IMG/VR virus record: IMGVR_UViG_3300024256_000025
Location: 1-38,822 of that record
DNA length: 38,822 bases
Source: a virus
Direction: 5' to 3' (one strand)
Shown here: positions 20,106 through 38,822 of the stretch, one piece after another
How the letters are laid out: the number at the start of each line of letters is the position of its first letter
Numbering within the stretch: position 1 is the stretch's first letter
Made by a program: the position numbers and the translations under genes
Notes under the pieces: generated by a model
What the model was told of the DNA's origin: nothing
Database searches by the model: none
What the model saw: only the letters and a program-made list of their open reading frames with translations

Positions 20106-20131
20106 GTATTATAACAATCAAGGAGGCTGCT

Positions 20132-20703: not shown

Positions 20704-20716
20704 AAGGAGGTTCAAG

Positions 20717-21511: not shown

Positions 21512-21535
21512 GAACACATAAGATTGGATAAATAA

Positions 21536-21573: not shown

Positions 21574-21606
21574 AGTGCTATTATTAACAAGAAGGGAGAA
21601 TAATAA

Positions 21607-22761: not shown

Positions 22762-22772
22762 AGGAGAATAAA

Positions 22773-23024: not shown

Positions 23025-23307
23025 TGATGAGTTTATTCCTCCATGTAAATTAATTAACGTATCTCCAAGAGTTTGGTGGTATGGCAAATTGTATGAAGAG
23101 GATGGTCAACATTTTAAAATCTGTCCAATTTGTTCTTGCAATTCTATTACGGATAAGGTAAAATGGTATACAAGATGGAGAAGGAAGAGACAGGGTATTG
23201 AAAACATTGAAGAACTAAGATGTTCAAAATGTAAAACGAGATTCCTTGTCATCTCAAACACATGTAATAGTAAAGGAACTTGGATTTGGTGCAGATATGG
23301 AACTTAA
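23017..23307 (+). CDS. Small zinc-ribbon protein
   Basis: A 96-residue protein with two Cys pairs: CPIC (ICPICSCNS) and CSKC (LRCSKCKTRF), 40 residues apart, like a treble-clef or zinc ribbon. The middle is strongly basic and aromatic (WYTRWRRKRQG). ATG 23017 is chosen because it sits just before the conserved-looking SNDEFIPPCKLI and overlaps the preceding stop; the frame is open further upstream within the previous gene. Probably nucleic-acid binding; function unknown. Confidence 0.6.
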   Translation: MSNDEFIPPCKLINVSPRVWWYGKLYEEDGQHFKICPICSCNSITDKVKWYTRWRRKRQGIENIEELRCSKCKTRFLVISNTCNSKGTWIWCRYGT

Positions 23308-23488
23308 ATTTGGTACAATTTATTACTATAAAGAGTATAAACGATACGAAATGATACTTGAAATTCGAAAGACTCATTATCTTGTAATGGCTCTGAACGG
23401 GACAGAAGGAGGAAGAACATTCACAGAAGACTTAGCTTGGTATAAGCACGACCGCATTGTGCCGTTATTAGTCCATATTATAGGATAA
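23297..23488 (+). CDS. Small VGD-cluster protein (cluster A, member 1)
   Basis: A 63-residue protein starting MELKFGTIYYYKEYKRYEMI. The pattern 'K-x-G-x-x-Y-x-Y, hydrophobic strand, Thr-Phe-x-x-x-x-x-Trp-Tyr' is shared with the next two genes (GGRTFTEDLAWYKHD here; KDKTFTEHKYWFKSN in the third). Predicted to be a small beta barrel. The start at 23297 overlaps the previous gene by 11 bases; an upstream in-frame start is less likely. Confidence 0.6.
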   Translation: MELKFGTIYYYKEYKRYEMILEIRKTHYLVMALNGTEGGRTFTEDLAWYKHDRIVPLLVHIIG

Positions 23489-23489
23489 A

Positions 23490-23687
23490 ATGAATATGAA
23501 AGTAGGTGACATTTACCGTTATAATGATGTTGTAGAAATTATAACAAAGATAGATAAGGACGTAAATGACTCGTATTGTGTCGGATTTGTGGCAAAAGGT
23601 GGAATCCAAAAGAATAGGTTTATCCTTGAGACTGAGAGTTGGTATGAAGAAAATAAAAATGAAATCACTTGGATTGTAAAGCAATGA
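23490..23687 (+). CDS. Small VGD protein (cluster A, member 2)
   Basis: A 65-residue protein: MNMKVGDIYRYNDVVEIITK, a central FVAKGGIQKNRF turn and C-terminus ENKNEITWIVKQ. It shares start and end with the next gene (KVGDVYYF ... YITWVVKQ), so the two are tandem paralogues. AGGA lies upstream. No known function; the fold looks like a KOW/SH3-type barrel. Confidence 0.65.
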   Translation: MNMKVGDIYRYNDVVEIITKIDKDVNDSYCVGFVAKGGIQKNRFILETESWYEENKNEITWIVKQ

Positions 23688-23883
23688 ATATTAAAGTAGG
23701 GGACGTTTACTATTTTCATGAAGGAACACTTAAGAGATGGGAAGTTGTAACAAAGATTATCTCTTCGTCAACAGTGGAAATGACAGTGTTGAATGGAAAA
23801 TTAAAAGATAAAACATTTACAGAACACAAGTATTGGTTTAAATCGAATGAAAAGTACATTACTTGGGTTGTAAAGCAATGAAT
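23667..23883 (+). repeat. 23-bp direct repeat with one mismatch at gene junctions (23667-23689, 23861-23883)
   Basis: Two copies 194 bp apart differ at one base and cover the ITW(I/V)VKQ coding end, the ATGA overlap and the first codons of the next gene. They show that the gene plus its junction was duplicated as a unit. Confidence 0.85.
23684..23881 (+). CDS. Small VGD protein (cluster A, member 3)
   Basis: A 65-residue paralogue of the preceding gene: MNIKVGDVYYFHEGTLKRWE, then KDKTFTEHKYWFKSNEKYIT and ending ITWVVKQ. It starts in an ATGA overlap. The longer upstream reading (from 23669) would add residues encoded by the end of the neighbour and is rejected. Confidence 0.65.
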   Translation: MNIKVGDVYYFHEGTLKRWEVVTKIISSSTVEMTVLNGKLKDKTFTEHKYWFKSNEKYITWVVKQ

Positions 23884-24105
23884 CTTCGACAATATAGTAT
23901 TTGGTATGATGATGATTGTGGAGAATATGCATATCTCGATTCTTATCATGAAGATAGTGCAAGTAGATGGATGAAAGTAGTCTACTTTAGTGACAAAAAG
24001 ATGATTTCAATAAGTCTTTGGGGATTTAACGAGGCATTTCACCTTGTCTGGGAAGATAAAACTAGACCAATTATCGGATACAGTGGAGAGCACCATGAAG
24101 ATTAG
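23878..24105 (+). CDS. Hypothetical 75-residue protein, SIWYD paralogue 1
   Basis: Begins MNLRQYSIWYDDDCGEYAYL. The next gene begins MKIRKHSIWYDKEYEEYVTI; the shared 'SIWYD-x-x-x-x-EY' start shows a second pair of tandem paralogues. The start in an ATGA overlap, within the duplicated junction repeat, decides between it and an upstream frame extension. Function unknown. Confidence 0.6.
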   Translation: MNLRQYSIWYDDDCGEYAYLDSYHEDSASRWMKVVYFSDKKMISISLWGFNEAFHLVWEDKTRPIIGYSGEHHED

Positions 24106-24310
24106 AAAACACAGTATCTGGTATGATAAAGAATATGAAGAATATGTGACAATTTTGGAAGACAGAACGTACAGAGAGGTGATGTATTCTCGTTTTCTGG
24201 TATATTCTTCACTACAATATTTAACATTTACATATGATTTAGAATATATACGAGAAAATTGTATACTCATTTTTGAGAACAGAGAAGAGGAAATTTTATA
24301 TGACAATTAG
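24095..24310 (+). CDS. Hypothetical 71-residue protein, SIWYD paralogue 2
   Basis: Starts at ATG 24095, with GGAG six bases upstream. It shares the SIWYD-x-x-x-x-EY start with the previous gene, followed by strands FLVYSSLQYLTFTYDLEYI. It overlaps both neighbours by about 11 bases. Function unknown. Confidence 0.6.
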   Translation: MKIRKHSIWYDKEYEEYVTILEDRTYREVMYSRFLVYSSLQYLTFTYDLEYIRENCILIFENREEEILYDN

Positions 24311-25295: not shown

Positions 25296-25296
25296 G

Positions 25297-26046: not shown

Positions 26047-26063
26047 ACAAACAAAAGGATAAA

Positions 26064-26606: not shown

Positions 26607-26640
26607 GATCAAATAACTATAACAACAAAAGGAGAAAAAA

Positions 26641-27204: not shown

Positions 27205-27206
27205 TC

Positions 27207-27500: not shown

Positions 27501-27510
27501 GGAGACAATA

Positions 27511-27936
27511 ATGCAACTAACACGTAATTTTTCAATGCATGAATTTGATTGCAAAGATGGAACAAAGGTAATCACAGAAGGACGAGACATCAAAGCAGAG
27601 ATCCGAACATTGGCATTGACCTTACAATTCATTCGAGATGAATGGGGTGGAGGATTGACAGTACTTAGTGGGTTTCGTACCTTAACCTATAATACGAGTG
27701 TAGGAGGGGAAACGACAAGTCAGCATGTTCGGGCAAGAGCGGCAGACATTCGTCCTAACGATTGGACAGAGGATACTACCCTCGAAGAGAAGCAAGAAGA
27801 CTTGAACAGACTGTATGATACGATCAACGTCATGCAGACAAATGGAGACATTTTGAAGGGTGGATTATCTGTCTATCTTGATGAGCATAATCTGTTTGTT
27901 CATGTGGATACAAGAGGCAAAGAGGCTCGCTGGTAA
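27511..27936 (+). CDS. M15-type zinc peptidase (D-Ala-D-Ala carboxypeptidase-like), candidate endolysin
   Basis: A 141-residue peptidoglycan peptidase of the M15A type. Key residues: LSGFRT, then SQHVRARAADIRP (the SxHxxxxAxD zinc motif) and HVDTRG with the third zinc ligand. The size matches minimal phage endolysins, which may cut peptide cross-links at lysis; alternatively it could be a virion-associated lysin. No holin-like membrane protein is next to it. AAGGAG lies upstream. Confidence 0.8.
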   Translation: MQLTRNFSMHEFDCKDGTKVITEGRDIKAEIRTLALTLQFIRDEWGGGLTVLSGFRTLTYNTSVGGETTSQHVRARAADIRPNDWTEDTTLEEKQEDLNRLYDTINVMQTNGDILKGGLSVYLDEHNLFVHVDTRGKEARW

Positions 27937-27939
27937 TTT

Positions 27940-28776
27940 ATGAGCGAGTATAAAGAAGTTAAAGTATTAGATAAGGGATTTGTGCAGCTAATTGACACGA
28001 TGGGGGATGATCGCTCCATCTGTCAATCTGCACGAGTTTCCTACAGCGGAGGGAAGTTGAAAAACAAATCTTCGGACGAAAAGCTTATTCGATACTTAAT
28101 GAGAAATTCTCATTGGTCTCCTTTCGAAATGTGTCAAATAAAGTTGCACATGAAGATGCCGATTTTTGTTGCAAGACAATTTTATACTTATCGGGCAAGT
28201 TCTCGAAACGAAATCTCTGGGAGATATTCAAAATTGGAAAGCAACTTTTTCATTCCCGAAGAGAGTCGTATTTTTGGGCAAGGAGTTTTAAATAAACAAG
28301 GTAGCGAGAAACCCCTTGAGGAAGAAATTCAAAAGCAAAGTGTTGAATTAATACAAAAAAGCGTTAACGATTCGGCAAAAGCGTACGAAGCTTTATTGGA
28401 AAGCGGAGTTTCAAGAGAGATTTCGAGAGTGGTACTCCCGACCTCTATTTATACAGAATTCTATTGGAGCATGAATCTTCGTAATATATTCAATTTTTTG
28501 AGTCAAAGACTTGACGAACATGCCCAAATTGAAATTCGAGAGTATGCAAAAGTAATTTACGAAATTGTTAAAGAATGGGTTCCAATTGCTTTGAGTGCGT
28601 TTGAAGATTATAATCTAAATGCAACTACTTTCTCTGCACAAGAAATTGAGATTTTGAGAAGCGTGTTACAGTCACACATCATGGCAGAAACATTCAGTTC
28701 TGCCATCAATAAAGAAAATAACTTAAAAGGTTCTGAAAAAGTTGAATTTTTGAAAAAAATAAACAAAATGGTGTAA
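27940..28776 (+). CDS. thyX: Flavin-dependent thymidylate synthase ThyX (divergent RHR motif)
   Basis: A 278-residue enzyme making dTMP from dUMP with FAD and methylene-tetrahydrofolate. Around residues 78-96 it reads ARQFYTYRASSRNEISGRYS. The SxNExSxRY part is intact, but the usual R-H-R just before it is T83-Y84-R85. Other conserved parts are present: SHWSPFE, EFYWSMNLRNIFNFLSQRLD and HAQIEIREYA. The C-terminal 60 residues are phage-specific. It supplies thymidine for phage DNA with the class II ribonucleotide reductase. Start ATG 27940 has no clear SD. Confidence 0.88.
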   Translation: MSEYKEVKVLDKGFVQLIDTMGDDRSICQSARVSYSGGKLKNKSSDEKLIRYLMRNSHWSPFEMCQIKLHMKMPIFVARQFYTYRASSRNEISGRYSKLESNFFIPEESRIFGQGVLNKQGSEKPLEEEIQKQSVELIQKSVNDSAKAYEALLESGVSREISRVVLPTSIYTEFYWSMNLRNIFNFLSQRLDEHAQIEIREYAKVIYEIVKEWVPIALSAFEDYNLNATTFSAQEIEILRSVLQSHIMAETFSSAINKENNLKGSEKVEFLKKINKMV

Positions 28777-28824
28777 AGATTCCCATCTTCGTTACTACTT
28801 AATGGTATAAGGGAGGAAGAGAAA

Positions 28825-29865
28825 ATGGAATATTATGTTTATTTATTGATCGACCCAAGAGACGAAACTGTATTTTACGTTGGGAAGGGAAGCGGAAATA
28901 GAATGAGGCACCATATCAATGCTGTGAAGAGAGGACAGTACCCAAACGGGACAAATGCTAAACTATATTCAAAAATTAAGAAAATATTAAATGAAGGATA
29001 TGAGGATGTTGAATATAAAAAGGAGTTTGAATGTTTGGATGAACAGACCGTGTATGACAGAGAAAAGGAAGAGATTGAAAAATATGGGTTAGGGAATTTG
29101 TGTAACCTCGAAGGTGGTGGAGGAAAAGCATATGAAGTTTCTAAAGAAACAAGAGAGAAATTAAGTCAAGCAACCAAAAATTACTACAAAAATCATCCAA
29201 ATGAAAAGAGAAATCGAGATCCCCTCAAAGAGGATGAATGCAGGAAAAAAATTAGTGAATCATTAAAGAAGCATTACAAAGAACATCCAGAAGCAATCGA
29301 AAATCTTAGGAAGAAAGCAACAGGTAGACGACACAGCGAAGAGACGAAAGAAAAGATTTCAAAAAACTCAAGAAGGCCAGAAAATATAAAGATTTCTAGT
29401 GAAAATTTGAAAAAAGCTCGGGCAACTCCACAGACAAAGGAGCAAAGGGAACGAGCAACAGAGACGAAGAGAAATAACGGAAAACCCTGGCATTCGGAAG
29501 CGACTCTCGAAAAACTTAGAAAGCCCAGAAGCGAAGAGTTTAGAGAAAGTTGTCGAGGGAAAAACAATCACTTTTTTGGAAAAAAACATACAAAAGAAAC
29601 TACAGACAAAGCATCAGAAAAATTAAAGTTAGTTTATTATGTTCTAGATCCTTTGGGGAATTTGTATACGATTATAGGGACAAAAGGAATGAGAGATTTT
29701 TTTTACGGAGATGATGGAATAAACAAGAACGTAAAGAGTTGGAAAGATAAAGTTAATTTACAAGAGATAAAAAGAGTTGGAAATTATAAGGGTTGGGTAA
29801 TTGAAAAAAAGATAAGCCTTTATGAACACAACTTGTTAACAAAAGGACAATATGACACATTTTGA
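28825..29865 (+). CDS. GIY-YIG homing endonuclease with NUMOD3 repeats
   Basis: A 346-residue free-standing endonuclease. The N-terminal GIY-YIG domain is YYVYLLIDPRDETVFYVGKG, followed by RMRHHIN and the catalytic Glu region. DNA-binding NUMOD3-type repeats follow: KKISESLKKHYKEHPE, GRRHSEETKEKISKNS and GKKHTKETTDKASEKL. A C-terminal domain (YYVLDPLGNLYTIIG) may be NUMOD1-like. GGGAGG precedes ATG. Such genes move between phages by cutting uninfected alleles; it stands 815 bp before the intein in the helicase gene. Confidence 0.9.
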   Translation: MEYYVYLLIDPRDETVFYVGKGSGNRMRHHINAVKRGQYPNGTNAKLYSKIKKILNEGYEDVEYKKEFECLDEQTVYDREKEEIEKYGLGNLCNLEGGGGKAYEVSKETREKLSQATKNYYKNHPNEKRNRDPLKEDECRKKISESLKKHYKEHPEAIENLRKKATGRRHSEETKEKISKNSRRPENIKISSENLKKARATPQTKEQRERATETKRNNGKPWHSEATLEKLRKPRSEEFRESCRGKNNHFFGKKHTKETTDKASEKLKLVYYVLDPLGNLYTIIGTKGMRDFFYGDDGINKNVKSWKDKVNLQEIKRVGNYKGWVIEKKISLYEHNLLTKGQYDTF

Positions 29866-30031
29866 GCAATTTATCGATATGCTAGAATGGGCAGAAATTA
29901 AATATACAACAACTACAAGATATGATTCTGTTTATGTTGTGTTTACAAAGGCAGATGCAGAGGCGTGTTTTACATTTGATGGTGATGGTAATTTAAATTA
30001 TGTAGATACAGAATCATTAGTAGAAGACTAA
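29852..30031 (+). CDS. Small 59-residue protein overlapping the endonuclease end
   Basis: Starts MTHFEQFIDMLEWAEIKYTT and ends in an acidic stretch (TESLVED). AGGA lies just before ATG 29852, and the frame overlaps the endonuclease by 14 bases. It has a compact alpha-beta look (DSVYVVFTKADAEACFTFDG). Not recognised. It was probably adjacent to the helicase before the endonuclease arrived. Confidence 0.6.
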   Translation: MTHFEQFIDMLEWAEIKYTTTTRYDSVYVVFTKADAEACFTFDGDGNLNYVDTESLVED

Positions 30032-30052
30032 CATTAATAAGGAAAAACATAT

Positions 30053-32002
30053 ATGACAAATAATGAAACATTTTCAAGATTTGGGAAGGGCTTTCAAGAG
30101 AATGTAGTACACTTGCTGTTACTTGACAGGGCCTTTGCGGATCAATTTGGGGAGTTGTTAGAGTATAGTTTTTTTGAGTATGAATATCTAAGAACATTTA
30201 TTCATCTCATTTTTGACTATCGACATAAATACAAGACTCACCCAACATATAAAATTATTGAAGTTCTATTGAGAACAGAGTTGGATAAAGAAATTGAACT
30301 TGTTCAAGAACAGGTTAGGGGATTCTATGCCAAAATTAAGTTATCTGTAGAGATTGAGGGGGCAGAATATACAAAAGAGAAAGCTATTGACTTTGCCAAG
30401 GGGCAGAAGTTAAAGGCAGCTATTTTACAATCTGTTCCGTTGATTGAAGAGGCCAATGAGGCATCGTATGATAAGATTAAGAAGATTGTTAATGATGCTC
30501 TAAAGTTAGGTGTCGATAACAATCTGGGTCAAGATCTCATCATCGATTTCGAGAAGAGATACGAAGATAAGATGAGAAAAGAGATCCCTACTGGTTGGGA
30601 AGAAGTTGACAAGATTACTCAAGGTGGCCTTGGTAAGGGCGAAATGGGAGTGGTAATTTCGACCAGTGGGGGCGGAAAATGTCAATTTTACGATACAAAT
30701 GTTGACATTAAATGGAACAATACCAACAAGTTAGAAACAATCCAAATTGGTGAATTATTCAAAAAACTTGATATCAAAATTGAAGAAGATAATACAATTA
30801 AGAATGACTTTGTCGATATTAGTGTAAGAACTCTCAATGGATATCGAAAGATTGAAGCGTTTTATAATTCTCCAAAATTAGCAAGTAGAGAGATCTTTCT
30901 TGAAAATGGTATGAGTTTGAGAGGATCGTATGAACATCGAGTAATGTGTAAACTTAAAATTAACTTAAGAAAAGGTTTAGTTGCAAAAGATCAAGGAGGA
31001 TATGTTCACGTCCGAGCGGAAGATTTGACAATGGAAGATATCGCTTGTTCAGAAACTTTGACTACATATAATTACGTTCATATGAAGAATTTAAGTGTCG
31101 GGAGTCTTGTTGAAACAATTTCTGGCCTTTCGAGAATAAAAGAAATAAAAGATCACGAAGAAGAACACATCCTGTACGACTTTCAGGTAGAAGAAGTACA
31201 TTGCTTATATACTAATGGCATTTTAAGTCATAACTCAATGGCGATGGTTCACTTGGCCGCAACAGCACTTCAAGATGGGAAGAATGTAATTTATTATACA
31301 TTAGAATTGTCAGAGGAAGTTGTCGATTTGAGATTCGACAGTTTTTTTTCAGGAGTTCCTCTTAACGATTTGAAGACATTTAAGGATCTTGTATTTGAGG
31401 AGGTAAAAAAGAAATATAAGGGAAAGTTGCTGACAAAATATTACCCTCCAATGAGTGCAACTCTTAATACTTTACGTAATCATCTTGAAAAGGTTAAGCA
31501 AAGAGGAGTTAAAATTGATTTAATTATTGTAGATTATGCAGATCGAATCAAGCCAATGGGGAATAGAAATGGTGGAGAGAAAAGACACGAACTAGAAGAG
31601 ATTTATGAAGAGTTGCGAGGTATTGCAGGGGAGAACGAGTGTACTCTTTATACCTGTTCACAGACAAATCGTGGAGGATTAAATGCCGAAGTCATTACAA
31701 TGGACAGTATTAGCGAGGCATATAACAAGTGTTTCCCTGCCGACTTGATTGTCACTATTTCAAGAACTATTGAAGACAGAGCATCAAATAGTGGGAAGAT
31801 GTTCATTGCAAAGAACAGATTTGGTGTTGATTCGATTGTCTACGATATGGAAATTGATACATCTCTTGTCAAATTGAAGGTTCTTGATAAGATTGATAAG
31901 TCAATTAAAGACATCAACAAGAAGAGCGAAGAAGAAGAAAAAGTAGCTTTGCTAGAGAAGTATAGAAAATTCAAAGAAGGAAGAGCAAAGAATGGCAGTT
32001 AA
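30053..32002 (+). CDS. Replicative helicase (DnaB/T4 gp41-like) carrying a P-loop mini-intein
   Basis: A 649-residue precursor; the spliced product would be 464 residues, close to T4 gp41 (475). The N-terminal 190 residues are the helical gp41-like domain, followed by GWEEVDKITQGGLGKGEMGV and the Walker A start ISTSGGGK. The intein (residues 210-394) splits the P-loop between K209 and S395. After it come MAMVHLAATALQDGKNVIYY, Walker B IDLIIVDYADR, and YTCSQTNRGG. It is the 5'-3' replicative helicase. The SD AAGGAA lies upstream. Its activity must wait for splicing, because the P-loop is broken in the precursor. Confidence 0.9.
   Translation: MTNNETFSRFGKGFQENVVHLLLLDRAFADQFGELLEYSFFEYEYLRTFIHLIFDYRHKYKTHPTYKIIEVLLRTELDKEIELVQEQVRGFYAKIKLSVEIEGAEYTKEKAIDFAKGQKLKAAILQSVPLIEEANEASYDKIKKIVNDALKLGVDNNLGQDLIIDFEKRYEDKMRKEIPTGWEEVDKITQGGLGKGEMGVVISTSGGGKCQFYDTNVDIKWNNTNKLETIQIGELFKKLDIKIEEDNTIKNDFVDISVRTLNGYRKIEAFYNSPKLASREIFLENGMSLRGSYEHRVMCKLKINLRKGLVAKDQGGYVHVRAEDLTMEDIACSETLTTYNYVHMKNLSVGSLVETISGLSRIKEIKDHEEEHILYDFQVEEVHCLYTNGILSHNSMAMVHLAATALQDGKNVIYYTLELSEEVVDLRFDSFFSGVPLNDLKTFKDLVFEEVKKKYKGKLLTKYYPPMSATLNTLRNHLEKVKQRGVKIDLIIVDYADRIKPMGNRNGGEKRHELEEIYEELRGIAGENECTLYTCSQTNRGGLNAEVITMDSISEAYNKCFPADLIVTISRTIEDRASNSGKMFIAKNRFGVDSIVYDMEIDTSLVKLKVLDKIDKSIKDINKKSEEEEKVALLEKYRKFKEGRAKNGS
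30680..31234 (+). mobile_element. Mini-intein (185 residues) in helicase Walker A motif
   Basis: The intein begins with Cys210 (CQFYDTNV, block A) and ends LYTNGILSHN (block G) before Ser395. Block B contains GSYEHRVM with His295, and block F reads YDFQVEEVHCLY. No LAGLIDADG or HNH endonuclease is inside, so it cannot home alone. The +1 Ser needed for splicing is also the Ser of the GKS P-loop. Confidence 0.93.
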
Positions 32003-32345
32003 TTTCAAAGTAGGTGATATTGTCAAATTTGAAAAGATATTGGATGCATATGAAAAAGTTGTAAGTGATATGTCTCGTCAACTTGCAGAAGAAATTGATA
32101 AGATGATTCTTGAAGATTTGCTTAGAATGTCTGGAGTAGACGAAACATTCTTAAATGACGAAAAGTTTACTACAGTAGAAGAAAAAGAGGAGACCCCTGA
32201 CAACGTAGTCAAACAATATCAATATGGGATTATTGTAAAGATAAAGGAAGAATGGTATTGTGAAGTTAGAGTATTTGGTGAAAAGAAAATTGAGAATATT
32301 AGATTTGATGAATTAACAAAAGCCAAGTGGATAAATTCTCCTTGA
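31992..32345 (+). CDS. VGD-type small protein with a helical insert (cluster B, member 1)
   Basis: A 117-residue protein. It begins MAVNFKVGDIVKFEK, has a helical, acidic insert (residues about 20-70), and resumes the barrel with QYQYGIIVKIKEEWYCEVRV, then GEKKIENIRFDEL. The ends match the next proteins (QYGIVVDRE...VRILGESRVKNI). It overlaps the helicase stop by 11 bases. Probably a small SH3/KOW-like domain; function unknown. Confidence 0.65.
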   Translation: MAVNFKVGDIVKFEKILDAYEKVVSDMSRQLAEEIDKMILEDLLRMSGVDETFLNDEKFTTVEEKEETPDNVVKQYQYGIIVKIKEEWYCEVRVFGEKKIENIRFDELTKAKWINSP

Positions 32346-32370
32346 CCTTTTGTTATAAATATATTATAAT
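32342..32370 (+). promoter_or_regulatory. Near-consensus sigma-70 promoter TTGACC-N17-TATAAT
   Basis: TTGACC (32342-32347), a 17-base spacer and TATAAT (32365-32370). The -35 overlaps the stop codon of the gene before. The expected transcription start, 6-8 bases after the -10, coincides with ATG 32377, giving a leaderless or nearly leaderless mRNA. Confidence 0.8.
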
Positions 32371-32376
32371 GTATGT

Positions 32377-32595
32377 ATGGAAAACAAATATCTATTAAAG
32401 ACTGGAGATTTTATTGTCATAAGTGGGTATGATCAGTATGAAGATGAAAACCCACATTTGCAATACGGAATTGTGGTAGATAGGGAATGCGATCTTTTGA
32501 GAGTTAGGATTCTCGGGGAAAGTCGAGTGAAGAATATATATCTTGCGTTTCACAATTTTGAATATTGGAACATCTTGGAGGATAAGGATGATTGA
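32377..32595 (+). CDS. VGD-type small protein (cluster B, member 2), likely leaderless
   Basis: A 72-residue protein: LLKTGDFIVISGYDQYEDE, LQYGIVVDRECDLLRVRIL and end YWNILEDKDD. It matches the preceding protein without its insert. No Shine-Dalgarno stands before ATG; the promoter -10 ends six bases upstream. The DNA encoding YWNILED supplies the GGAGGA ribosome binding site of the next gene. Confidence 0.65.
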   Translation: MENKYLLKTGDFIVISGYDQYEDENPHLQYGIVVDRECDLLRVRILGESRVKNIYLAFHNFEYWNILEDKDD

Positions 32596-32781
32596 CAAAC
32601 CAAAGATCGGAGATTTTATTGTTGCAGAATACAATTCTTTAAAATGGTATGGAATTATCACAGAGATAAGTAATACCAATGATTGGCATCATGTAAATTA
32701 TTGTTGTAAACGTATTGGGAGTAAGAAAATATATAATTTGGGATGTAGAGAAAGTCTTTCATATTGGAACATCTTGGAGGA
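32562..32781 (+). repeat. 21-bp exact direct repeat at two gene ends (32562-32582 and 32761-32781)
   Basis: The repeat encodes YWNILED at the C-terminus of two successive genes and contains GGAGGA, which is the ribosome binding site of the next gene each time. The copies are 199 bp apart, the gene-unit length. Confidence 0.9.
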
Positions 32782-32788
32782 CAAATGA
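32588..32788 (+). CDS. VGD-type small protein (cluster B, member 3)
   Basis: A 66-residue protein: MIDKPKIGDFIVAEYNSLKW, YGIITEI, KRIGSKKIYNLG, end SYWNILEDK. It is a paralogue of the previous gene (GDFIV, YGI, YWNILEDK). ATG 32588 lies six bases after GGAGGA; the longer upstream frame is a read-back into the neighbour and is rejected. Confidence 0.65.
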   Translation: MIDKPKIGDFIVAEYNSLKWYGIITEISNTNDWHHVNYCCKRIGSKKIYNLGCRESLSYWNILEDK

Positions 32789-33000
32789 GATCACTGTATA
32801 ATGTAGGAGATTTTGTTAAGAGAGTTTCAACTTCGTCCTATTGGTCTTGGCACGGAGTCATAGTTGAGAAATATAGCTCAGAGTATTATGGGACTACTTA
32901 CAAAGTAAGACAGCTCTTCCCATCAAATACAGAGATAGTTGTTTCAGACACTTATAATATGACGATTTGGTTTGACACAAAAGGAGAGCAAAATGATTAA
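32785..33000 (+). CDS. VGD-type small protein (cluster B, member 4)
   Basis: A 71-residue protein: MRSLYNVGDFVKRVSTSSYW, WHGVIVEKYSSEYYGTTYKV. It shows the same GDFV start and (H/Y)G-V/I-I strand. The start is in an ATGA overlap after GGAGGA. Function unknown. Confidence 0.6.
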   Translation: MRSLYNVGDFVKRVSTSSYWSWHGVIVEKYSSEYYGTTYKVRQLFPSNTEIVVSDTYNMTIWFDTKGEQND

Positions 33001-33340
33001 AAGAGAATTAGAAGAAGCAATTAAACATATTGCAAATTATATTGAGAGTGAAGATTTGATATGGGACGAACAAGAGTTAGAAAATCTTACAAAATATAGA
33101 ATCGAGATCGAAACATTTGAAGAGAAGAAGTATGTAGTAATGGTAACATACCTAAACGATCAGTTATCAAGTTTAACAATCTCTGACAACAGAGGGGAAA
33201 GGATTATTCATCAACCCACGTTTACCTTGGATGATGGGAACTTTATTCAAGACAGATTTGAAATTAAGACCAGAAATAAAAGACACCTTGCCTTTCTGGC
33301 ATTCAATGATGAAATGAAAGAATTGGCAAAATTATCATGA
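32993..33340 (+). CDS. Hypothetical 115-residue protein
   Basis: Starts MIKRELEEAIKHIANYIES, helix first, then beta segments (YRIEIETFEEKKYVVMVTYL; QDRFEIKTRNKRHLAFLAF). GGAG is seven bases before ATG 32993. It is unlike the VGD proteins around it. Not recognised. Confidence 0.65.
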   Translation: MIKRELEEAIKHIANYIESEDLIWDEQELENLTKYRIEIETFEEKKYVVMVTYLNDQLSSLTISDNRGERIIHQPTFTLDDGNFIQDRFEIKTRNKRHLAFLAFNDEMKELAKLS

Positions 33341-33546
33341 ATAGGGGCGATTTTGTTATTGCTTACAGCGAATCTGTCGGATACGCTAAACAGTTTTATG
33401 GAATAAACACTACAGAACAAAATGGGGCTTTACGCCATCAAGTGATGTACTGTAGAGTGTGGGACTTAAAAGGCAGAATCCACAGATATATTCTACGTAA
33501 AGAAGTTAAGGTTTTGATTAAATATGAAAAGGGAGAAAATATATGA
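33337..33546 (+). CDS. VGD-type small protein (cluster B, member 5)
   Basis: A 69-residue protein with MNRGDFVIAYSES and FYGINTTEQNGALRHQVMYC. It keeps the GDFV start and a YGI strand but has a basic C-terminal half (RIHRYILRKEVKVLIKYEKG). ATGA overlaps join it to both neighbours, so it is translated with the reductase gene. Confidence 0.6.
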   Translation: MNRGDFVIAYSESVGYAKQFYGINTTEQNGALRHQVMYCRVWDLKGRIHRYILRKEVKVLIKYEKGENI

Positions 33547-35978
33547 ATCAAGAAGAAGTATATAATAAAACATTAGAGTATTATGAAGGAGATATTTTAG
33601 CGACAGAATCATGGATTAATAAATATGCATTAAGGGATAATGATAGCAACCTTGTAGAATCAACTCCTGACAACATGCACCGAAGACTTGCCAAAGAGTT
33701 TGCGAGAATTGAACAGAATTATTCAAATCCTTTGACAGAAGAAGAGATCTATAGTTACTTTAAGGATTTCAATTCAATTGTTCCTCAAGGTTCTCCAATG
33801 TATGGAATTGGGAACAATACGAGTTTGATGAGTTTGTCAAACTGTGTGGTTGTTGCTCCTCCAAAAGATAGTGTATCTGGGATCATCAATACTTCGAGAG
33901 ACTTGGCAAACCTATACAAGAACAGATGTGGCGTTGGAACAGACATTTCAACATTAAGGCCAGAAGGAGAGAGGGTAAATAACTCGGCAGGAACTACAAC
34001 TGGTGCTTGGAGTTTTGCAGATTTCTATTCGTATGTAACAAACATGATTGGGCAGAATGGTAGACGATCAGCGTTGATGCTTACAATGGATGTTTCTCAC
34101 CCAGATATTGAGAAGTTCATCACAATGAAGACAGATCTGTCAAAAGTGACAGGTGCCAATATTACTGTTAAACTATCAGACAAATTCATGAATGCCGTTT
34201 TTGCAGACAAAATGTTTGATCTTGTATTCGATGGTAAAGTTTATAAGACAGTTAATGCCAGGAGTTTGTTTAAGTTAATTGGAGAGACTGCGACAACAAC
34301 AGGCGAACCTGGAGTTTCATTTTGGGATCGTATTCTTGAAGATAATCCTCTACAATGCTATAAGGATGATGGATTTAATCATGTTGGTTTAAATCCATGT
34401 GGAGAATTATCCTTATCTCCTGACGATAGTTGTCGCTTAATTGCTATCAATCTTGTTAACTTTGTTCTTAATGCCTTTAGTGTCAAAGATGCAGTATTCG
34501 ACATGACATCGTTCGAAAGAACTATCAGAGTTGCAACAAGACTGTCAGATGATCTTATCGACCTTGAGGTAGAAAAGCTTAACAAGATCATCAATCATGC
34601 AAGTGAACAAGATGTAAAAGATGTCTTTATTCGCTTACGAGATACGGCACTGAAAGGTAGAAGAACAGGACTGGGTGTCTTTGGTTTGGCAGACATGCTT
34701 GCTAAACTGACTCTCAAATATGATAGTCAAGAAGCCATTGATTTCGTAGAACATATGATGAACAGCTTCAAAAACACTGCCTATAGTGAAAGTACGAGAC
34801 TTGCTAAAGAAAGAGGACCATTCCCAATTTGGAATTGGGAGAAGGAGAAGAACAATAAATTCATTAATAGCCTTGACAACGACGTTATTGAAGAGATTAA
34901 GACGTATGGCAGGAGAAGTGGGGCTTCACTCACATGTGCCCCAAATGGCACCTCTGCCATCGTCTCAAGGGTATCTTCTGGTATTGAGCCAATGTTTAGA
35001 TTCTCTTATACGAGAAGACGTAAACTAAACGAAAATGAAAAAGATATTAGAGCAGACTTTGTTGATGATAGTGGTATTCGTTGGAAGGAGCATAAATACG
35101 TGCATCCTCTGATCGAAAAGTATATGAGAGATTTCGGCATCAAGGAAGAGAAAGATCTCCCAGAGTTCTTTACAACTTCAGATAAGATTGATTATACTCA
35201 AAGAATCAAGATGCAAGAGGCATTACAGAAGGGAATTGATCATCAAATTTCAAGTACGATCAATCTTCCAAAAGGAACCAAATCAGATGTTGTGTGTGAC
35301 ATCTATGAGAAGGCTTATGAGCACAACCTAAAGGGATTGACAGTATATGTTGATGGTTCAAGAGCAAACGTTCTTGTTGATAACACAACAGCAAGTGATG
35401 TAAACCAAGATAGATTTTCTCCCGACAGGCCAAAGGAGTTGCCGTGTAATATCTTTCAAACTGTCGTGTCTGGTAAGCCTTATATCTTCTTTGTTGGGTT
35501 ATATGATGGAAAGCCATTCGAGTTGTTTGGCGGAGAGCAGAAAAAAATTAGGTTGCCAAAGCGTTATGAATCTGGTACAATTATAAAGCATGAGAGGAAG
35601 ACGGTAAGGAACAAGTATGATCTTGTTTTGACAGAAAAGAATTGTAAAGAGAATGGTACTGACTGTGATGAGATGGTTATTTCAGACATCGTTAATCAGT
35701 TCGACAATGGGATTAATTTAGCTTTTGCGAGGATCATTTCGACGAGTTTGAGACACAAAGTACCAGTGAAGTTTATTGTTGAGCAGTTACAGAAGGAAAC
35801 TGGCAACATGGATAATGATGGCTTGCACTCTTTTAATAAGGGTGCAGCAAGGGCATTAAAGCCTTATATTCTTGACAACGAGGGAGCAAATGGAGTCTGT
35901 GAAGAGTGTGGATCAACCAATCTCAGATATGAGGGAGGATGCATTATTTGTGAATGCGGAAGCAGTAAATGTGGGTGA
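33543..35978 (+). CDS. nrdJ: Adenosylcobalamin-dependent (class II) ribonucleotide reductase
   Basis: An 811-residue enzyme reducing ribonucleotides for phage DNA. C101 (SLSNCVVV) and C297 (DDSCRLIAINL) form the active-site redox pair; C286 in NPCGE is the thiyl site, with N284 and E288. The 11-residue distance from C286 to C297 equals that in Lactobacillus RTPR. NSAGTTTGAWSFADFYSYV and APNGTSAIVSRVSSGIEP are substrate-site parts. The C-terminus is a zinc ribbon (CEECGSTNL then CIICECGSSKCG). No NrdB/NrdG partner is nearby, fitting class II. The cofactor must come from the host or medium. Confidence 0.88.
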   Translation: MNQEEVYNKTLEYYEGDILATESWINKYALRDNDSNLVESTPDNMHRRLAKEFARIEQNYSNPLTEEEIYSYFKDFNSIVPQGSPMYGIGNNTSLMSLSNCVVVAPPKDSVSGIINTSRDLANLYKNRCGVGTDISTLRPEGERVNNSAGTTTGAWSFADFYSYVTNMIGQNGRRSALMLTMDVSHPDIEKFITMKTDLSKVTGANITVKLSDKFMNAVFADKMFDLVFDGKVYKTVNARSLFKLIGETATTTGEPGVSFWDRILEDNPLQCYKDDGFNHVGLNPCGELSLSPDDSCRLIAINLVNFVLNAFSVKDAVFDMTSFERTIRVATRLSDDLIDLEVEKLNKIINHASEQDVKDVFIRLRDTALKGRRTGLGVFGLADMLAKLTLKYDSQEAIDFVEHMMNSFKNTAYSESTRLAKERGPFPIWNWEKEKNNKFINSLDNDVIEEIKTYGRRSGASLTCAPNGTSAIVSRVSSGIEPMFRFSYTRRRKLNENEKDIRADFVDDSGIRWKEHKYVHPLIEKYMRDFGIKEEKDLPEFFTTSDKIDYTQRIKMQEALQKGIDHQISSTINLPKGTKSDVVCDIYEKAYEHNLKGLTVYVDGSRANVLVDNTTASDVNQDRFSPDRPKELPCNIFQTVVSGKPYIFFVGLYDGKPFELFGGEQKKIRLPKRYESGTIIKHERKTVRNKYDLVLTEKNCKENGTDCDEMVISDIVNQFDNGINLAFARIISTSLRHKVPVKFIVEQLQKETGNMDNDGLHSFNKGAARALKPYILDNEGANGVCEECGSTNLRYEGGCIICECGSSKCG

Positions 35979-36132
35979 TCTCTTTATTGAGAAAAATTTA
36001 AACATATATGCTGTTTTGATTGGAGAGGATGAATTAAGCTATGAATTCAAAGAGTATTATGGAAATGGGAAGACTGACATCTTCTTTGTTGGAAAGCGAA
36101 ATGTTTTTCATTATTATAAAAAAATCGTATAG
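35950..36132 (+). CDS. VGD-type small protein (cluster C, member 1)
   Basis: A 60-residue protein. GTG 35950 is preferred because GGGAGGA stands ten bases upstream; earlier in-frame codons lie before that site. The sequence has NVGDLFIEKNLNIYAVLIGE, a KTDIFFVGKRNVFHYYKKIV end. It overlaps the reductase by 29 bases. First of seven tandem relatives. Confidence 0.6.
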   Translation: MNAEAVNVGDLFIEKNLNIYAVLIGEDELSYEFKEYYGNGKTDIFFVGKRNVFHYYKKIV

Positions 36133-36142
36133 TTGGTAACTA

Positions 36143-36346
36143 ATGGATACAGTAAATGTTGGAGATATCTTGAGAGAAAATGAAACAGGGAGAATTGCAG
36201 TAGTTGTTGGTGTTATTTATGAAAGACAGAAAAAGTACCTCATTGAAGAACACCGTTCATCTTATGGCATTTTTAAATTTCAATTTGTACAAGATGATGT
36301 TTGGTATTTTTATGATAGGATTGTAGAATACAAAGTTGGCAATTGA
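36143..36346 (+). CDS. VGD-type small protein (cluster C, member 2)
   Basis: A 67-residue protein: MDTVNVGDILRENETGRIAV, then a KYLIEEHRSSYG middle and DDVWYFYDRIVEYKVGN end. The pattern VGDILRE...GRIAVVVG recurs in the next members. Its stop overlaps the next ATG by one base. Confidence 0.65.
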   Translation: MDTVNVGDILRENETGRIAVVVGVIYERQKKYLIEEHRSSYGIFKFQFVQDDVWYFYDRIVEYKVGN

Positions 36347-36543
36347 TGATTGACAAAACCAAGGTAAGAGTGGGTTCGATCTTGAGAGAAAAGACAAGTG
36401 GAAGAATTGCTTTCGTTTATAAAATGGAATCTTGTACTTATTCGAAAATTGCTCATGTAAAAGAACTCTCTGCTCTTGGGAAACCTAATTGGTCCTTTTT
36501 TATAGACAATTTACAATATTACTATTCACCAATTATGTATTGA
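36346..36543 (+). CDS. VGD-type small protein (cluster C, member 3)
   Basis: A 65-residue protein, MIDKTKVRVGSILREKTSGR then IAFVYK; C-terminal SFFIDNLQYYYSPIMY. GD has become GS. ATG 36346 in a TGATG overlap is taken as the start rather than the TTG three bases before. Confidence 0.65.
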   Translation: MIDKTKVRVGSILREKTSGRIAFVYKMESCTYSKIAHVKELSALGKPNWSFFIDNLQYYYSPIMY

Positions 36544-36550
36544 GGGCAAT

Positions 36551-36748
36551 GTGGAAGGTAAATACAAAATAGGGGACATCTTTCGAGAAAGAGAAAGTGA
36601 AAACATTGCCATAATTGTAGGTCGAGTTCTTGAGTGGGATGAATATTGGGTTGACGAGTATCGTAAAGATGGGGGCATAAGTGAACTTTTATTTACAGAA
36701 TATGGGATAGAAAAATATTATTACAAGATAGAGATCGAAGATGTTTAA
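36551..36748 (+). CDS. VGD-type small protein (cluster C, member 4)
   Basis: A 65-residue protein with GTG start and GAGGG upstream: MEGKYKIGDIFRERESENIA, IIVG; end LLFTEYGIEKYYYKIEIEDV. It keeps the YYY end of its relatives. Confidence 0.65.
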   Translation: MEGKYKIGDIFRERESENIAIIVGRVLEWDEYWVDEYRKDGGISELLFTEYGIEKYYYKIEIEDV

Positions 36749-36935
36749 TGATGGAATAAAAATGCACACATTACTAAAAGATAAGATGAATCGCAATCAT
36801 TTGGCAATCATTATTAATGATAATGCTTCTTTTTCTGGGTATTATAGAGTATTAGGATATGATATTACAGTAAAGCGATGGATACAGTATAGTCTGCATT
36901 GGCAAGCGATTAACAATTATTACGAGGCTTGGTAG
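36741..36935 (+). CDS. VGD-type small protein, divergent (cluster C, member 5)
   Basis: A 64-residue protein, MFNDGIKMHTLLKDKMNRNH then LAIIIND. The GD turn is lost (KMHTLLKDK in place of VGDILRE), but the LAII strand and the INNYYEAW end remain. It overlaps the previous gene by eight bases. Confidence 0.55.
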   Translation: MFNDGIKMHTLLKDKMNRNHLAIIINDNASFSGYYRVLGYDITVKRWIQYSLHWQAINNYYEAW

Positions 36936-36936
36936 T

Positions 36937-37086
36937 ATGAAAAATAAATATAAAGTAGGGGATGTTTTACTCGATCCTGAAAGAAAGAATTTTGCTGTAG
37001 TTTTATCTGTAGTTAGACTTTCGGGTGGAGGATTTGCAGCCAAGATTAAAGAGTACAATCGTAGTATAAAACGGATAGAATTCTAA
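36937..37086 (+). CDS. VGD-type small protein, shortened (cluster C, member 6)
   Basis: A 49-residue protein: MKNKYKVGDVLLDPERKNFA, VVLSVVR, AAKIKEYNRSIKRIEF. GAGG lies upstream. It ends before the aromatic W/F-x-x-x-YYY tail that its relatives have, so it is either a shorter variant or a decayed copy. Confidence 0.55.
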   Translation: MKNKYKVGDVLLDPERKNFAVVLSVVRLSGGGFAAKIKEYNRSIKRIEF

Positions 37087-37122
37087 GAATTCTTTACCTT
37101 GACGTTTGCATATCTTGTTGGT

Positions 37123-37137
37123 CACTTTTCAAAAGTG
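37123..37137. promoter_or_regulatory. 15-base palindrome CACTTTT-C-AAAAGTG
   Basis: Perfect 7-bp inverted repeat around one C in the 67-base gap before the seventh VGD gene; a TTGACG lies 20 bases upstream but with no good -10 at the right distance. It could be an operator-like site or a small hairpin. Confidence 0.35.
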
Positions 37138-37153
37138 GATATTAATTATTAAG

Positions 37154-37357
37154 ATGGATACTAACAAACTAAGAGTAGGATCGATCTTGCGTGAAGATAT
37201 TTCTAAATGCAATTGTGTTATAGTGAAAATTGACTTTTCAAAAAAGGATCAAGATGTCGATCTTGTCCGTATTAAAGAATCTGAGGAAGCTACAAGAGAA
37301 TTCTGGAATTTCACCAGAATAAGAGTAGAAAATTATTACACTATCCTTATTTATTAA
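37154..37357 (+). CDS. VGD-type small protein (cluster C, member 7)
   Basis: A 67-residue protein: MDTNKLRVGSILREDISKCN, CVIVKID; end FWNFTRIRVENYYTILIY. It is closest to members 2 and 3 (VGSILRE). ATG 37154 is chosen; the upstream frame start at 37106 would run through the palindrome. No strong SD. Confidence 0.6.
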   Translation: MDTNKLRVGSILREDISKCNCVIVKIDFSKKDQDVDLVRIKESEEATREFWNFTRIRVENYYTILIY

Positions 37358-37382
37358 GGATAAAAACAAAAAGGGGATCAAA

Positions 37383-37583
37383 ATGGCGAGAGTAACTAGC
37401 ATGAAGACATTCTATTTAACAGAGGAAGAGATGAAAACAATTGTTGTCGAACACCTAAAACATACGGTGTTGAGAAGGGATACCAAAACGTTAAGTCATC
37501 TATACGACAATTGGGAAACAATTAATATGGAATGGGTAGATGGAGAGTTTGCAATTTCAGTAGATGGAGAAATGGAGGCATAA
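37383..37583 (+). CDS. Hypothetical 66-residue protein
   Basis: Starts MARVTSMKTFYLTEEEMKTI, with helical character and an acidic end (EWVDGEFAISVDGEMEA). AGGGGAT lies upstream. Its last codons contain the GGAGG of the next gene. Not recognised. Confidence 0.65.
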   Translation: MARVTSMKTFYLTEEEMKTIVVEHLKHTVLRRDTKTLSHLYDNWETINMEWVDGEFAISVDGEMEA

Positions 37584-37584
37584 A

Positions 37585-37860
37585 ATGAAAAAAGAAGCAA
37601 AGACACTAACTTACAACAAAGAGAAGACCGAAGAGTTTGCAAAGCGATTATTCGCGATTCGTAGAGAAAAGAAGATTCTACAAGAGGATGAGAAGGAACT
37701 AAAGGCAGAGTTTAAAGAACACGTTCCGGTAAAGCTCGTAAACAAGATTATCAGAGTAGTTAAGCTGAAGATTGATATGCAGTATGAGGCAGCATCAGAA
37801 GAAACTATTGAAGAGATTGAGGATATCATTGCGGATAGTATTGGCGCAATTATTGAATAA
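37585..37860 (+). CDS. Hypothetical coiled-coil protein, 91 residues
   Basis: A highly charged helical protein (KTEEFAKRLFAIRREKKILQ; EDEKELKAEFKEHVPVKLVN) with an acidic C-terminus. ATG 37585 has GGAGG (37574-37578) six bases upstream, so it is preferred over ATG 37564. Similar small coiled coils in phages have unknown roles. Confidence 0.65.
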   Translation: MKKEAKTLTYNKEKTEEFAKRLFAIRREKKILQEDEKELKAEFKEHVPVKLVNKIIRVVKLKIDMQYEAASEETIEEIEDIIADSIGAIIE

Positions 37861-37873
37861 ATAAGGAGAAATT

Positions 37874-38191
37874 ATGATTAACAATAAGTTGTGGCCTGCT
37901 GGAAAATATGTCCTACTGGAGCCATACAAAGAAACTGGAGATATCGAAAGAGAAGCTGATCTTATTTATCTTCCAAAAGATCCAGATAAAGAAGAAGAAA
38001 GATATCAAACATTTGTCATTGACAGTTCTGGAGATAAGTGTGATAATGTTGTGTCTGGCGATAATGGCAAGATTGCAATTATTGACGTTTCAGGATTAGA
38101 ACAGATGACGATATTTGGGGAAACTATTCATTTTTGTTTGGAAGGGTCTGTTGTGGCGATGTTCGATCATGACGCGGCAGAAGAAGAGTAA
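37874..38191 (+). CDS. GroES-like co-chaperonin (T4 gp31-type role)
   Basis: A 105-residue protein with a GroES-like order: an N-terminal strand GKYVLLEPYKETGD, LIYLPKDPDKEEERYQTFVI as the mobile-loop region, GKIAIIDVSGLEQMTIFGET and IHFCLEGSVVAMFD at the C-terminus. In T4, gp31 replaces GroES so that host GroEL can fold the major capsid protein. The match is by pattern only, so moderate. AAGGAG lies upstream. Confidence 0.55.
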   Translation: MINNKLWPAGKYVLLEPYKETGDIEREADLIYLPKDPDKEEERYQTFVIDSSGDKCDNVVSGDNGKIAIIDVSGLEQMTIFGETIHFCLEGSVVAMFDHDAAEEE

Positions 38192-38822
38192 TGTTACCTT
38201 CTGTTTGTATTGGCTCAACTATGGGAGTGTTGATGCATTCTGTATTAACTGACATTCCTTTGATTTACACAAATGATAAGCCATTCACATTTCTCGACAG
38301 AATGCCTCCTCAATATTCAGAATTACTTGAGGAACATTTAGGAATTCCTTTTAAAAACGGAATACTCAGAACTCCACAAGGAGATGAAATTGTTGGTCCT
38401 CTTGAAGAAGATGCTGAAGAAGATTTATTATTAAAACTTAGTTTAAATGGTGCCAACCTTTCAGGAACAGGAGTTGAAATCGTTTTCGTAAATGGAACAA
38501 ATAATGTCATAAAAGTTAATTACAAAAACAAGACAAGAACCACATTTTCCCCAAATAGAATGTTTATTTATGATGACTACAAGGTTCATGGATTAACAAA
38601 TCGGATCATCAGGATACAAGATCAGAAAAATAATGACGAAGTGGTGGATACATTTGAAGTCAGAACTTCATATGACTTGTTGAAGGAAGGCAAGTTTGAC
38701 AGGTTCAACATCCAAGGGGATGTTGAGACAAAAGCGTACGTTTTTGACAATAATATTGTCAAAGTGTATGGGGCATATAAAGATATTGAAGATTTCCCAA
38801 TGCACTTCATTTCAAGAAGATT
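38191..38822 (+). CDS. Unknown protein, 3' truncated by window end
   Basis: A frame open from ATG 38191 (TAATG overlap with the GroES-like gene) to the end, at least 210 residues. It starts MLPSVCIGSTMGVLMHSVLT, a hydrophobic Gly-containing start that might be a dinucleotide-binding turn, followed by DIPLIYTNDKPFTFLDRMP. Later parts include FIYDDYKVHGLTNRIIRIQD. I do not recognise the family; an FAD/NAD-type fold is only a guess. Confidence 0.6.
   Translation, partial: MLPSVCIGSTMGVLMHSVLTDIPLIYTNDKPFTFLDRMPPQYSELLEEHLGIPFKNGILRTPQGDEIVGPLEEDAEEDLLLKLSLNGANLSGTGVEIVFVNGTNNVIKVNYKNKTRTTFSPNRMFIYDDYKVHGLTNRIIRIQDQKNNDEVVDTFEVRTSYDLLKEGKFDRFNIQGDVETKAYVFDNNIVKVYGAYKDIEDFPMHFISRR

Follow-up and report, generated by a model that had tools for sequence, protein, structure and literature searches.

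An array of small, predicted SH3-like proteins behind a phage ribonucleotide reductase gene, and its likely kinship with overlapping gene cassettes of related phages

The 38,822-base IMG/VR virus record IMGVR_UViG_3300024256_000025, hereafter called the window, encodes a tail sheath, a UvsX-like recombinase, an exonuclease, a DnaB-like helicase and a ribonucleotide reductase (RNR). On its + strand, the reductase gene precedes seven small open reading frames (ORFs) of 49–67 codons each, located at 35950–37357 and called p1–p7 here. An earlier note on this DNA had observed these seven ORFs, as we confirm, and had taken them for homologous but strongly diverged genes with a shared, aromatic-ended layout. 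To assess the family, each protein was given a score by a profile built from the remaining core members, and this score was set against those of 3000 shuffled proteins (the jackknife below). The core had been chosen by an earlier iterative search, in which the best reversed decoys reached E-values (E) of 0.0006–0.008 in rounds 1–5; the weak core members needed the jackknife for this reason. The seven genes are as follows.

p1, 35950..36132, + strand: 60 amino acids; GTG start with GGAGG upstream; jackknife score 14.6 bits, reached by 0 of 3000 shuffles.
p2, 36143..36346, + strand: 67 amino acids; jackknife E 1.2e-5, 0 of 3000; modelled as a five-strand SH3-like barrel with a predicted local distance difference test score (pLDDT) of 76.7.
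p3, 36343..36543, + strand: 66 amino acids; jackknife E 4.2e-9, 0 of 3000; the start may be TTG at 36343 or ATG at 36346.
p4, 36551..36748, + strand: 65 amino acids; isoelectric point (pI) 4.4; jackknife E 1.2e-5, 0 of 3000.
p5, 36741..36935, + strand: 64 amino acids; probable member; 21 of 3000 shuffles reach its score.
p6, 36937..37086, + strand: 49 amino acids; jackknife E 5e-5, 0 of 3000; lacks the C-terminal strand in the alignment.
p7, 37154..37357, + strand: 67 amino acids; jackknife E 1.3e-7, 0 of 3000.

Since p1, p2, p3, p4, p6 and p7 outscore all 3000 shuffles, chance similarity is rejected for six of the seven genes. BLASTP links the same genes with one another (p2/p4 4e-8, p3/p7 8e-8, p2/p3 2e-7, p4/p6 4e-5 and p1/p2 4e-4), and the all-against-all comparison thus yields one diverged family for the six. 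The protein p5 has no BLASTP match to the other six below E 1.2, and its jackknife result is suggestive alone; six members plus one probable member is therefore a safer count than the seven of the earlier note. The protein p6 ends short of its final strand and is perhaps a copy in decay. Among all 18 core members, 17 have scores reached by no shuffle and one (L018:5115-5393) is reached by 3, while the scores of 20 further candidates are reached by 0 to 1174 shuffles. The start of p1 overlaps the end of the reductase gene. The isoelectric points of p1–p7 are 5.2, 5.2, 9.5, 4.4, 9.0, 10.1 and 6.2, and each protein contains 0–2 cysteines. The end of p2, EYKVGN (36326–36343), resembles the start of p6, KYKVGD; it may be what is left of a following copy after fusion, or the likeness may be due to chance.

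The family extends beyond these seven genes. Using the reductase as the query, we found a 122,708-base contig with zero mismatches to the window over the 13,280 bases compared, and 5 gap positions. On this longer contig of the same phage, the N-terminal motif is present in 39 of the 532 small ORFs (36 lie on the + strand), as compared to a mean of 4.4 and a maximum of 9 in 100 shuffles (the motif was sought in the first 45 residues, and the window stands in for its own part of the contig). Five other phages, two of which were counted over the first 120 kb alone, gave 3, 2, 6, 6 and 1 against shuffled values of 4.5, 4.3, 1.9, 4.8 and 2.7; Bacillus phage SP-15 shows a slight excess, with 6 against a shuffle maximum of 5. 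The window-phage profile A2 matched 21 places on the 122,708-base contig, and had zero matches at E<=1 in seven named phage records. An isolated array is rejected by these members elsewhere on the contig, and the limits of 35950–37357 given by the earlier note prove too narrow: the window itself contains two further, more weakly supported arrays, and the longer contig contains more.

Second array, 23297..24310, + strand: five small ORFs (23297, 23490, 23684, 23878 and 24095) between the recA/uvsX gene and the exonuclease gene.
Third array, 31992..33546, + strand: KVGDI at 31992, KTGDF at 32377, KIGDF at 32588, NVGDF at 32785 and RGDF at 33337, between the helicase and RNR genes.

Three of the five ORFs in the second array are matched weakly by A2 (E 0.006–0.014), and the other two are assigned by position and mutual likeness only; in the third array, the ORF at 33337 is assigned by position and motif only. 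Elsewhere, a four-gene array (L017:3403-4203) consists of genes that all start MKY(P/S)IGT, with first 30 nt that are 85% identical on average and remainders that differ; conserved gene heads thus occur in the window phage as well. There is also a second set of similar proteins (L017:10959-11369, 15186-15986, 16362-16862 and 17446-17895; L018:12511-12897), which, judged by eye, have repeats like WYQNGKHHRIDGPA, mostly behind a start like YQIWADGTVIYDD.

How does this gene order compare with that of related phages? At least 80 IMG/VR contigs carry a RecA-like protein 57–62% identical in an alignment search, and we call these the relatives. Six of them were compared in gene order, the RNR interval in the four that have a reductase. 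The flanks of p1–p7 are as follows.

Upstream flank, 33543..35978, + strand: ribonucleotide reductase (Pfam Ribonuc_red_lgC, E 4e-81).
Downstream flank, 37383..38820, + strand: includes the gene at 38191 (c74284).

On the longer contig, c74284 is followed by c75068. The homologues of both genes stand behind RNR in relatives that lack the array: those of c75068 occur in all six (E<=3e-22), those of c74284 in just two, G012 and G019 (E of roughly 1e-4 or lower). From RNR to the c75068 homologue, the distance is 1.7–2.0 kb in the four relatives, as compared to 3.0 kb here, and no motif ORF is listed in between among their ORFs of at least 45 codons. Similarly, the gap between recA and the exonuclease gene holds zero motif ORFs (at least 40 codons) in six of six relatives and five ORFs in the window phage. 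The aligned ends of the helicase and the reductase lie 4 to 163 bases apart in four relatives, and about 1.5 kb separates the two genes here. The DnaB-like helicase (30053–32002) has an insert of ~185 residues (about 210–394) with an intein splicing match (PF14890, E 2.4e-5) below the cut-off, and the helicases of six relatives are without it. A GIY-YIG/NUMOD3 homing-endonuclease-like gene lies in the same replication region (28825–29865). A search of window positions 30000–38822 found no RNA families, and promoter-like sites (34 versus 21.3 in shuffles) and terminators (3 versus 2.3) were not used as evidence.

The relatives possess a family of their own. Motif counts in six of their contigs were 25, 6, 12, 20, 8 and 15, where shuffling gave means of 8.8, 3.9, 5.1, 2.9, 1.7 and 2.5; the count of 6, in G032, is no excess over its shuffle maximum of 8. 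This count uncovered a related family of the form MKVGDLV...LEVISESR, and a family restricted to this phage is thereby rejected. Its profile A6 matches 11 of 42 relatives' records at E<=0.01 (5 of these 11 had supplied A6 sequences and 6 had not) and 0 of 7 named phages at the same threshold. All seven relatives' records over 45 kb match; the 31 non-matching records are 12–43 kb long. We also built a relatives-only profile from 41 proteins of the six contigs, which finds 85 proteins in them, its own seeds included (29, 2, 12, 20, 6 and 16). Gene number therefore differs among the relatives' contigs, many of which are fragments, from 0 to 29 matches.

Several comparisons connect the two families. 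At E<=0.01, the relatives-only profile matches 7 of 880 window-phage ORFs, two of them in the third array (31992, E 5e-5; 32764–33000, E 0.003), and 0 of 3859 ORFs in five control phages; two other ORFs of the third array score more weakly (32377, E 0.85; 32543–32788, E 0.11). Two of the window-phage proteins act as bridges: L018:6455-6670 (relatives-only profile E 0.0049, own-family jackknife 9e-11) and L017:3180-3401 (0.0011 and 9e-4, respectively). The reciprocal profile finds 2 relatives' proteins at E<=0.01, both from the MKVGDLV family, and hhalign between the two alignments gives E 5.8e-5 with a probability of 65.6. From these profile matches, bridged by intermediates, we consider it likely, though unproven for the window array, that the array and the relatives' family share one ancestor.

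In the relatives, neighbouring genes overlap in a characteristic manner. The C-terminus LE(V/I)(I/V)(S/N)E(S/G)R-stop of one gene and the N-terminus MKVGD of the following gene are encoded by the same bases in two frames, and the GGAG within the LE codons is likely the ribosome site. The overlap is 14 nt in 30 of 45 scorable neighbouring pairs (51 in total) and 4 nt in 7. A pattern of this joint matches at least 120 IMG/VR stretches; as the loci were chosen by the pattern, which contains GTC, the figures that follow describe loci selected for the joint. In 120 such loci, 706 of 1029 starts overlap the upstream ORF (at least 40 codons) by 14 nt, and the conservation of the joint spans about −12 to +19. 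At valine 3, the codon is GTC in 85% of the 617 starts with an overlap and in 63% of the 224 without one; for the 5144 valines inside cassettes, the share is 18%. Where a neighbour overlaps, 459 of 528 genes carry the C-terminal tag, as compared to 54 of 501 genes elsewhere, a contrast that largely follows from the overlap itself. Overlapping chains reach 13 genes with their frames intact, and 21 of 21 large contigs hold 10–29 matches each, which in contigs chosen for the joint informs on array size rather than frequency.

Cassettes appear to be gained and lost at these joints. Between contigs at least 88% identical, 11 insertions or deletions (indels) of at least 60 bases passed our filter, and 10 were left after a repeat was removed. 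Of their 20 ends, 17 are no more than 30 nt away from where a cassette starts, while 2000 random trials gave a mean of 4.4 and a maximum of 11. Eight of the ten indels have both ends at a joint, and one more has one end there, its other end reading like a joint that the pattern missed; the tenth (L239:12693) lies away from joints and has an end repeat of 7 nt. The nine joint-associated indels comprise six single units of 148–232 bases and three of 670–703 bases, and near-repeats of 19–40 nt occur at the ends of nine of the ten. Moreover, division of the unit length by 3 leaves 1 for five of the six single units, the remainder that a 14-nt overlap calls for. Recombination between cassettes in the relatives is thus, in our judgement, probable. 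In the window array, average identity is 42% over the first 30 nt, as compared to 27–37% later and 28% just upstream, a weak signal of gene-end duplication; in array F of the same phage, the values are 85% versus 28–36%. Overlaps in the other arrays of the window phage measure 1, 4, 8 and 11 nt, with a single case of 14 nt. This 14-nt overlap, at L004:15391-15404, has the sequence ATGAAAGCTTTTAA, which differs from the relatives' joint.

What fold do these proteins adopt? The models cover two proteins, p2 and one relatives' member, and both are predicted to be SH3-like, in line with the earlier note's view of one family. With 17 paralogues as the alignment, p2 was modelled as a five-strand barrel (strands 9–12, 18–27, 30–39, 42–50 and 57–59; mean pLDDT 76.7), and four other models reached 55–66. 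The relatives' member, with 46 alignment rows, has a pLDDT of 91.9 and the same strand order. By DSSP, both predicted models display the SH3 order of five strands with a short turn or helix before strand 5. The family thus very probably has SH3-like barrels in common. For p2, the top Foldseek match in the PDB is HspQ (5ycq, E 8e-3), followed by the PcrA/UvrD Tudor domain (0.024) and Mfd (0.086), and the best VIA match is CarD (Z 7.4, root-mean-square deviation 3.5 over 61 residues). The neighbours of the relatives' model are KOW, PWWP, Tudor and chromo domains, with a best Z of 8.1. Neither model has a PDB structural match below E 0.001, and A2 has no match to PDB sequences at E<=10. In BFVD, p2 has two matches under 1e-3, Microbacterium phage Shocker (top, E 2.5e-4) and Streptomyces phage Zeigle; tblastn of p2 returned three records, the best again Shocker (E 0.07). 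Several unnamed BFVD matches of p2 bear neighbouring accessions, and may represent another phage with many such proteins.

Family databases gave no firm assignment. PHROGs version 4 has no family at E<=0.001 for p1–p7, 17 members or 10 further proteins, and Pfam has no match above cut-off for p1–p7 or for 10 relatives' and other members. The best sub-threshold scores are those of p7 against Castor1_N (E 0.00099, 19.4 versus a cut-off of 26.5 bits), p4 and p7 against HspQ/YccV PF08755 (14.7 and 12.9 versus a gathering score of 22.8 bits; two of 17 members also show weak matches), and one relative against CarD_TRCF_RID PF02559 (13.3 versus 23 bits, E 0.088). Among the 17 members, the best Pfam match is that of one member to SH3-B_UBE2O PF23043 (E 2.8e-4), and neither CarD_TRCF_RID nor KOW is matched at E<=1. 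On these Pfam scores, we reject membership in HspQ, CarD and KOW and retain them as structural leads.

Searches among 50,697 annotated phages found no close DNA relative of window positions 16000–36000 by megablast, and no match at E<=1 to two relatives' cassettes by tblastn. The sole blastn matches of a 5-kb relatives' array were tRNA genes at its edge (L194, about 7000–7050). Among titles and abstract openings in searches of the open-access literature, we found no description of these arrays or of the overlapping joint, which does not prove that there is none. The joint pattern matched five contigs of metagenome-assembled genomes (MAGs) in a genome collection. In one of them, a WOR-3 MAG chromosome, a run of N stands between the cassettes (L327, 6659–7862) and host-like genes that, by eye, look like those of ATPase subunits. 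The cassettes are perhaps phage sequence joined to a host bin, and as they lie beyond the run of N, we claim no host.

These results are best read as a lineage-wide, duplicating set of small SH3-like binders with different partners, to which we assign a probability of about 0.6, the function being the conjectural part. The window array would be a local tandem expansion of a stand-alone SH3-like small barrel family whose members occur at many places in this phage and form cassette arrays in related ones. The family would expand and shrink via recombination or slippage at the gene ends, and duplication and loss at gene-end repeats would also have produced the window array. The conserved ends may serve as joint and scaffold, with the middle of the barrel as a variable binding face, so that each protein would be a small adaptor or inhibitor of a different host (or rival-phage) protein. 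The set would then be a changing repertoire for takeover or counter-defence. That the proteins have different protein partners, as the earlier note had supposed, we hold at even odds; the mixed isoelectric points of p1–p7 fit different partners, short of demonstrating them, and so does the spread of the relatives' 934 distinct cassettes over 568 single-linkage clusters (50% identity). Counter-defence in particular seems doubtful. Several of the structural neighbours (the CarD/Mfd RID, UvrD/PcrA Tudor, NusG KOW and HspQ) bind RNA polymerase lobes or proteases, which makes these plausible first targets, as a lead only.

We further entertain, as a tentative proposal with slightly less than even prospects, that a large-phage clade keeps a cassette system that needs no site-specific recombinase. 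Each cassette would start inside the last codons of the preceding one, but in a different frame, and a single stretch of ~32 nt would act at once as the Shine-Dalgarno sequence, the start, the first five residues, the previous C-terminus and the previous stop. Given how closely the joints resemble each other, recombination from one to another would give whole translatable genes, and the phage could freely add, drop and shuffle SH3-like binders. The window phage would represent a branch whose cassettes have left the reserve array and moved into the replication operons.

Several points weigh against the main reading, that of a duplicating set of binders. The 14-nt joint is absent from the window array, in which the spacings are 10, −1 (or −4), 7, −8, 1 and 67, and the array is tied to the relatives' family via the two bridging proteins only. 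At E<=0.01, profile A2 finds zero members in 50 contigs of the relatives. With the relatives-only profile, p2 itself reaches E 1.0, behind two ORFs of control phages at 0.055. The hhalign match spans 27 columns alone, falling to E 9e-4 with a probability of 22.6 when the window array alone (A1) is used. The membership of p5 is unproven at 21 of 3000 shuffles. The p2 model is of middling confidence (the five models range from 55 to 77), and SH3-like barrels are common, so that predicted structures with a Z of 6–8, or a shared fold, give no function. As for single indel events, deletions between short repeats could partly be assembly artefacts or collapse. Finally, the dN/dS (ratio of nonsynonymous to synonymous substitution) of 0.51–0.79 in six paralogue pairs of the window phage would also fit weak constraint.

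Alternatively, the proteins could be nucleic-acid-binding KOW-type factors like the N-terminal domain of T4 MotB, which would act jointly on host chromatin, transcription or translation, with many copies providing dose instead of different partners. The NusG/Spt5 KOW domain and ribosomal proteins are indeed among the structural neighbours; MotB, with its predicted KOW domain, binds DNA and alters H-NS binding (PMC7827196); and the 38 members and candidates of the window phage are basic overall, with a median pI of 8.8. This idea sits poorly with the 934 distinct cassettes of the relatives, of which 41% have a pI below 6 and 40% above 8, with a median net charge of 0. It also fails to account for the range of 4.4 to 10.1 within the window array and the absence of Pfam KOW among the 17 members. 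We regard it as improbable.

The balance between use and decay was addressed by dN/dS. From 531 orthologue-like pairs left after length, identity (60–99.5%) and site filters, 241 were kept at a synonymous divergence (pS) of 0.05–0.6 and 290 were dropped. In these 241 non-independent pairs, with end codons trimmed, the median dN/dS is 0.22 (quartiles 0.13–0.33), and 1% exceed 1: the relatives' orthologous cassettes are under purifying selection. The claim of the earlier note that selection keeps the copies thus holds for the relatives' orthologues. For the window array, it is less secure: p2/p3, p2/p4 and p3/p7 give 0.70, 0.64 and 0.57 at a dS of about 1, near saturation, and because only paralogues are compared there, weak constraint is compatible with dN/dS alone. 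Could the arrays then be birth-and-death noise, in which direct repeats at gene ends slip and most copies are dispensable and slowly lost, leaving an array of little function? The 19–40 nt repeats flanking nine of ten indels, the truncated p6 and the paralogue values would all be expected, but the orthologues' median of 0.22, the intact frames in chains of up to 13 and the 10–29 copies in all 21 large contigs chosen for the joint are not, and we give this idea a still smaller chance. Least probable are RNA-polymerase-interaction modules of the CarD/Mfd RID type that redirect host transcription in successive infection stages, for which the CarD, UvrD Tudor and Mfd matches of p2 and the sub-threshold CarD_TRCF_RID match speak, but the Pfam cut-off is unmet, a Z under 8 perhaps reflects just a common arrangement, and ribosomal and Spt5 domains rank first for the relatives' model.

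The set of duplicating SH3-like binders, if real, would explain why large phages carry tens of unannotated tiny genes without decay, with a gene joint written so that recombination there keeps frames whole. It could offer viruses a simple route to the continual invention of small proteins. With its hundreds of natural versions of a single barrel, the family would also be a ready set for testing what small phage proteins bind in hosts and defence systems, and a predicted fold is now attached to proteins without a PHROG match at E<=0.001. As for other genes among the small-gene arrays, there are two RNA ligases, at L018:11606-12511 and 15137-16318 (Pfam RNA_ligase with a weak T4 Rnl2_C match, and RNA_lig_T4_1); the nearness of such RNA repair genes to the family is a possible hint of counter-defence. 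A phage-borne chaperonin lies at L017:6207-7766 (Cpn60_TCP1, E 6e-60).

How do these arrays compare with known systems? HspQ/YccV (PF08755), the top Foldseek match, is a small barrel like p2; HspQ is a single-copy host protein, and p4 and p7 do not reach its Pfam cut-off. The CarD/TRCF RID, the UvrD/PcrA Tudor and the NusG KOW have the fold predicted for p2 and the relatives' member, but these are domains within larger proteins, whereas the window-phage barrel stands alone and is amplified. Gene-cassette systems such as integrons are likewise arrays of small exchangeable genes with common joints; in the relatives' cassettes, by contrast, the joint codes in two frames and contains the likely ribosome site. 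Weak SH3-like similarity is also on record for a small cyanobacterial protein (PMC4215834). T4 MotB, likened here by description, is an early phage protein with a predicted KOW/SH3-like domain, as here, but it has an additional predicted OB-fold domain, and the accessible part of its description reports no array of dozens (PMC7827196). The expansion of paralogues in large phages is already known, and the nearest parallel is Bacillus phage G, with its ~35 copies of a zinc ribbon (PMC7824862). The proteins themselves differ, as the window array has no zinc pairs among its 0–2 cysteines per protein and p2 is a predicted SH3-like barrel, and the overlapping joint is absent from the published description of the zinc ribbons, as far as that text was accessible. 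By the same account, both are large phages with a lineage-specific expansion in which one protein has reached dozens of copies.

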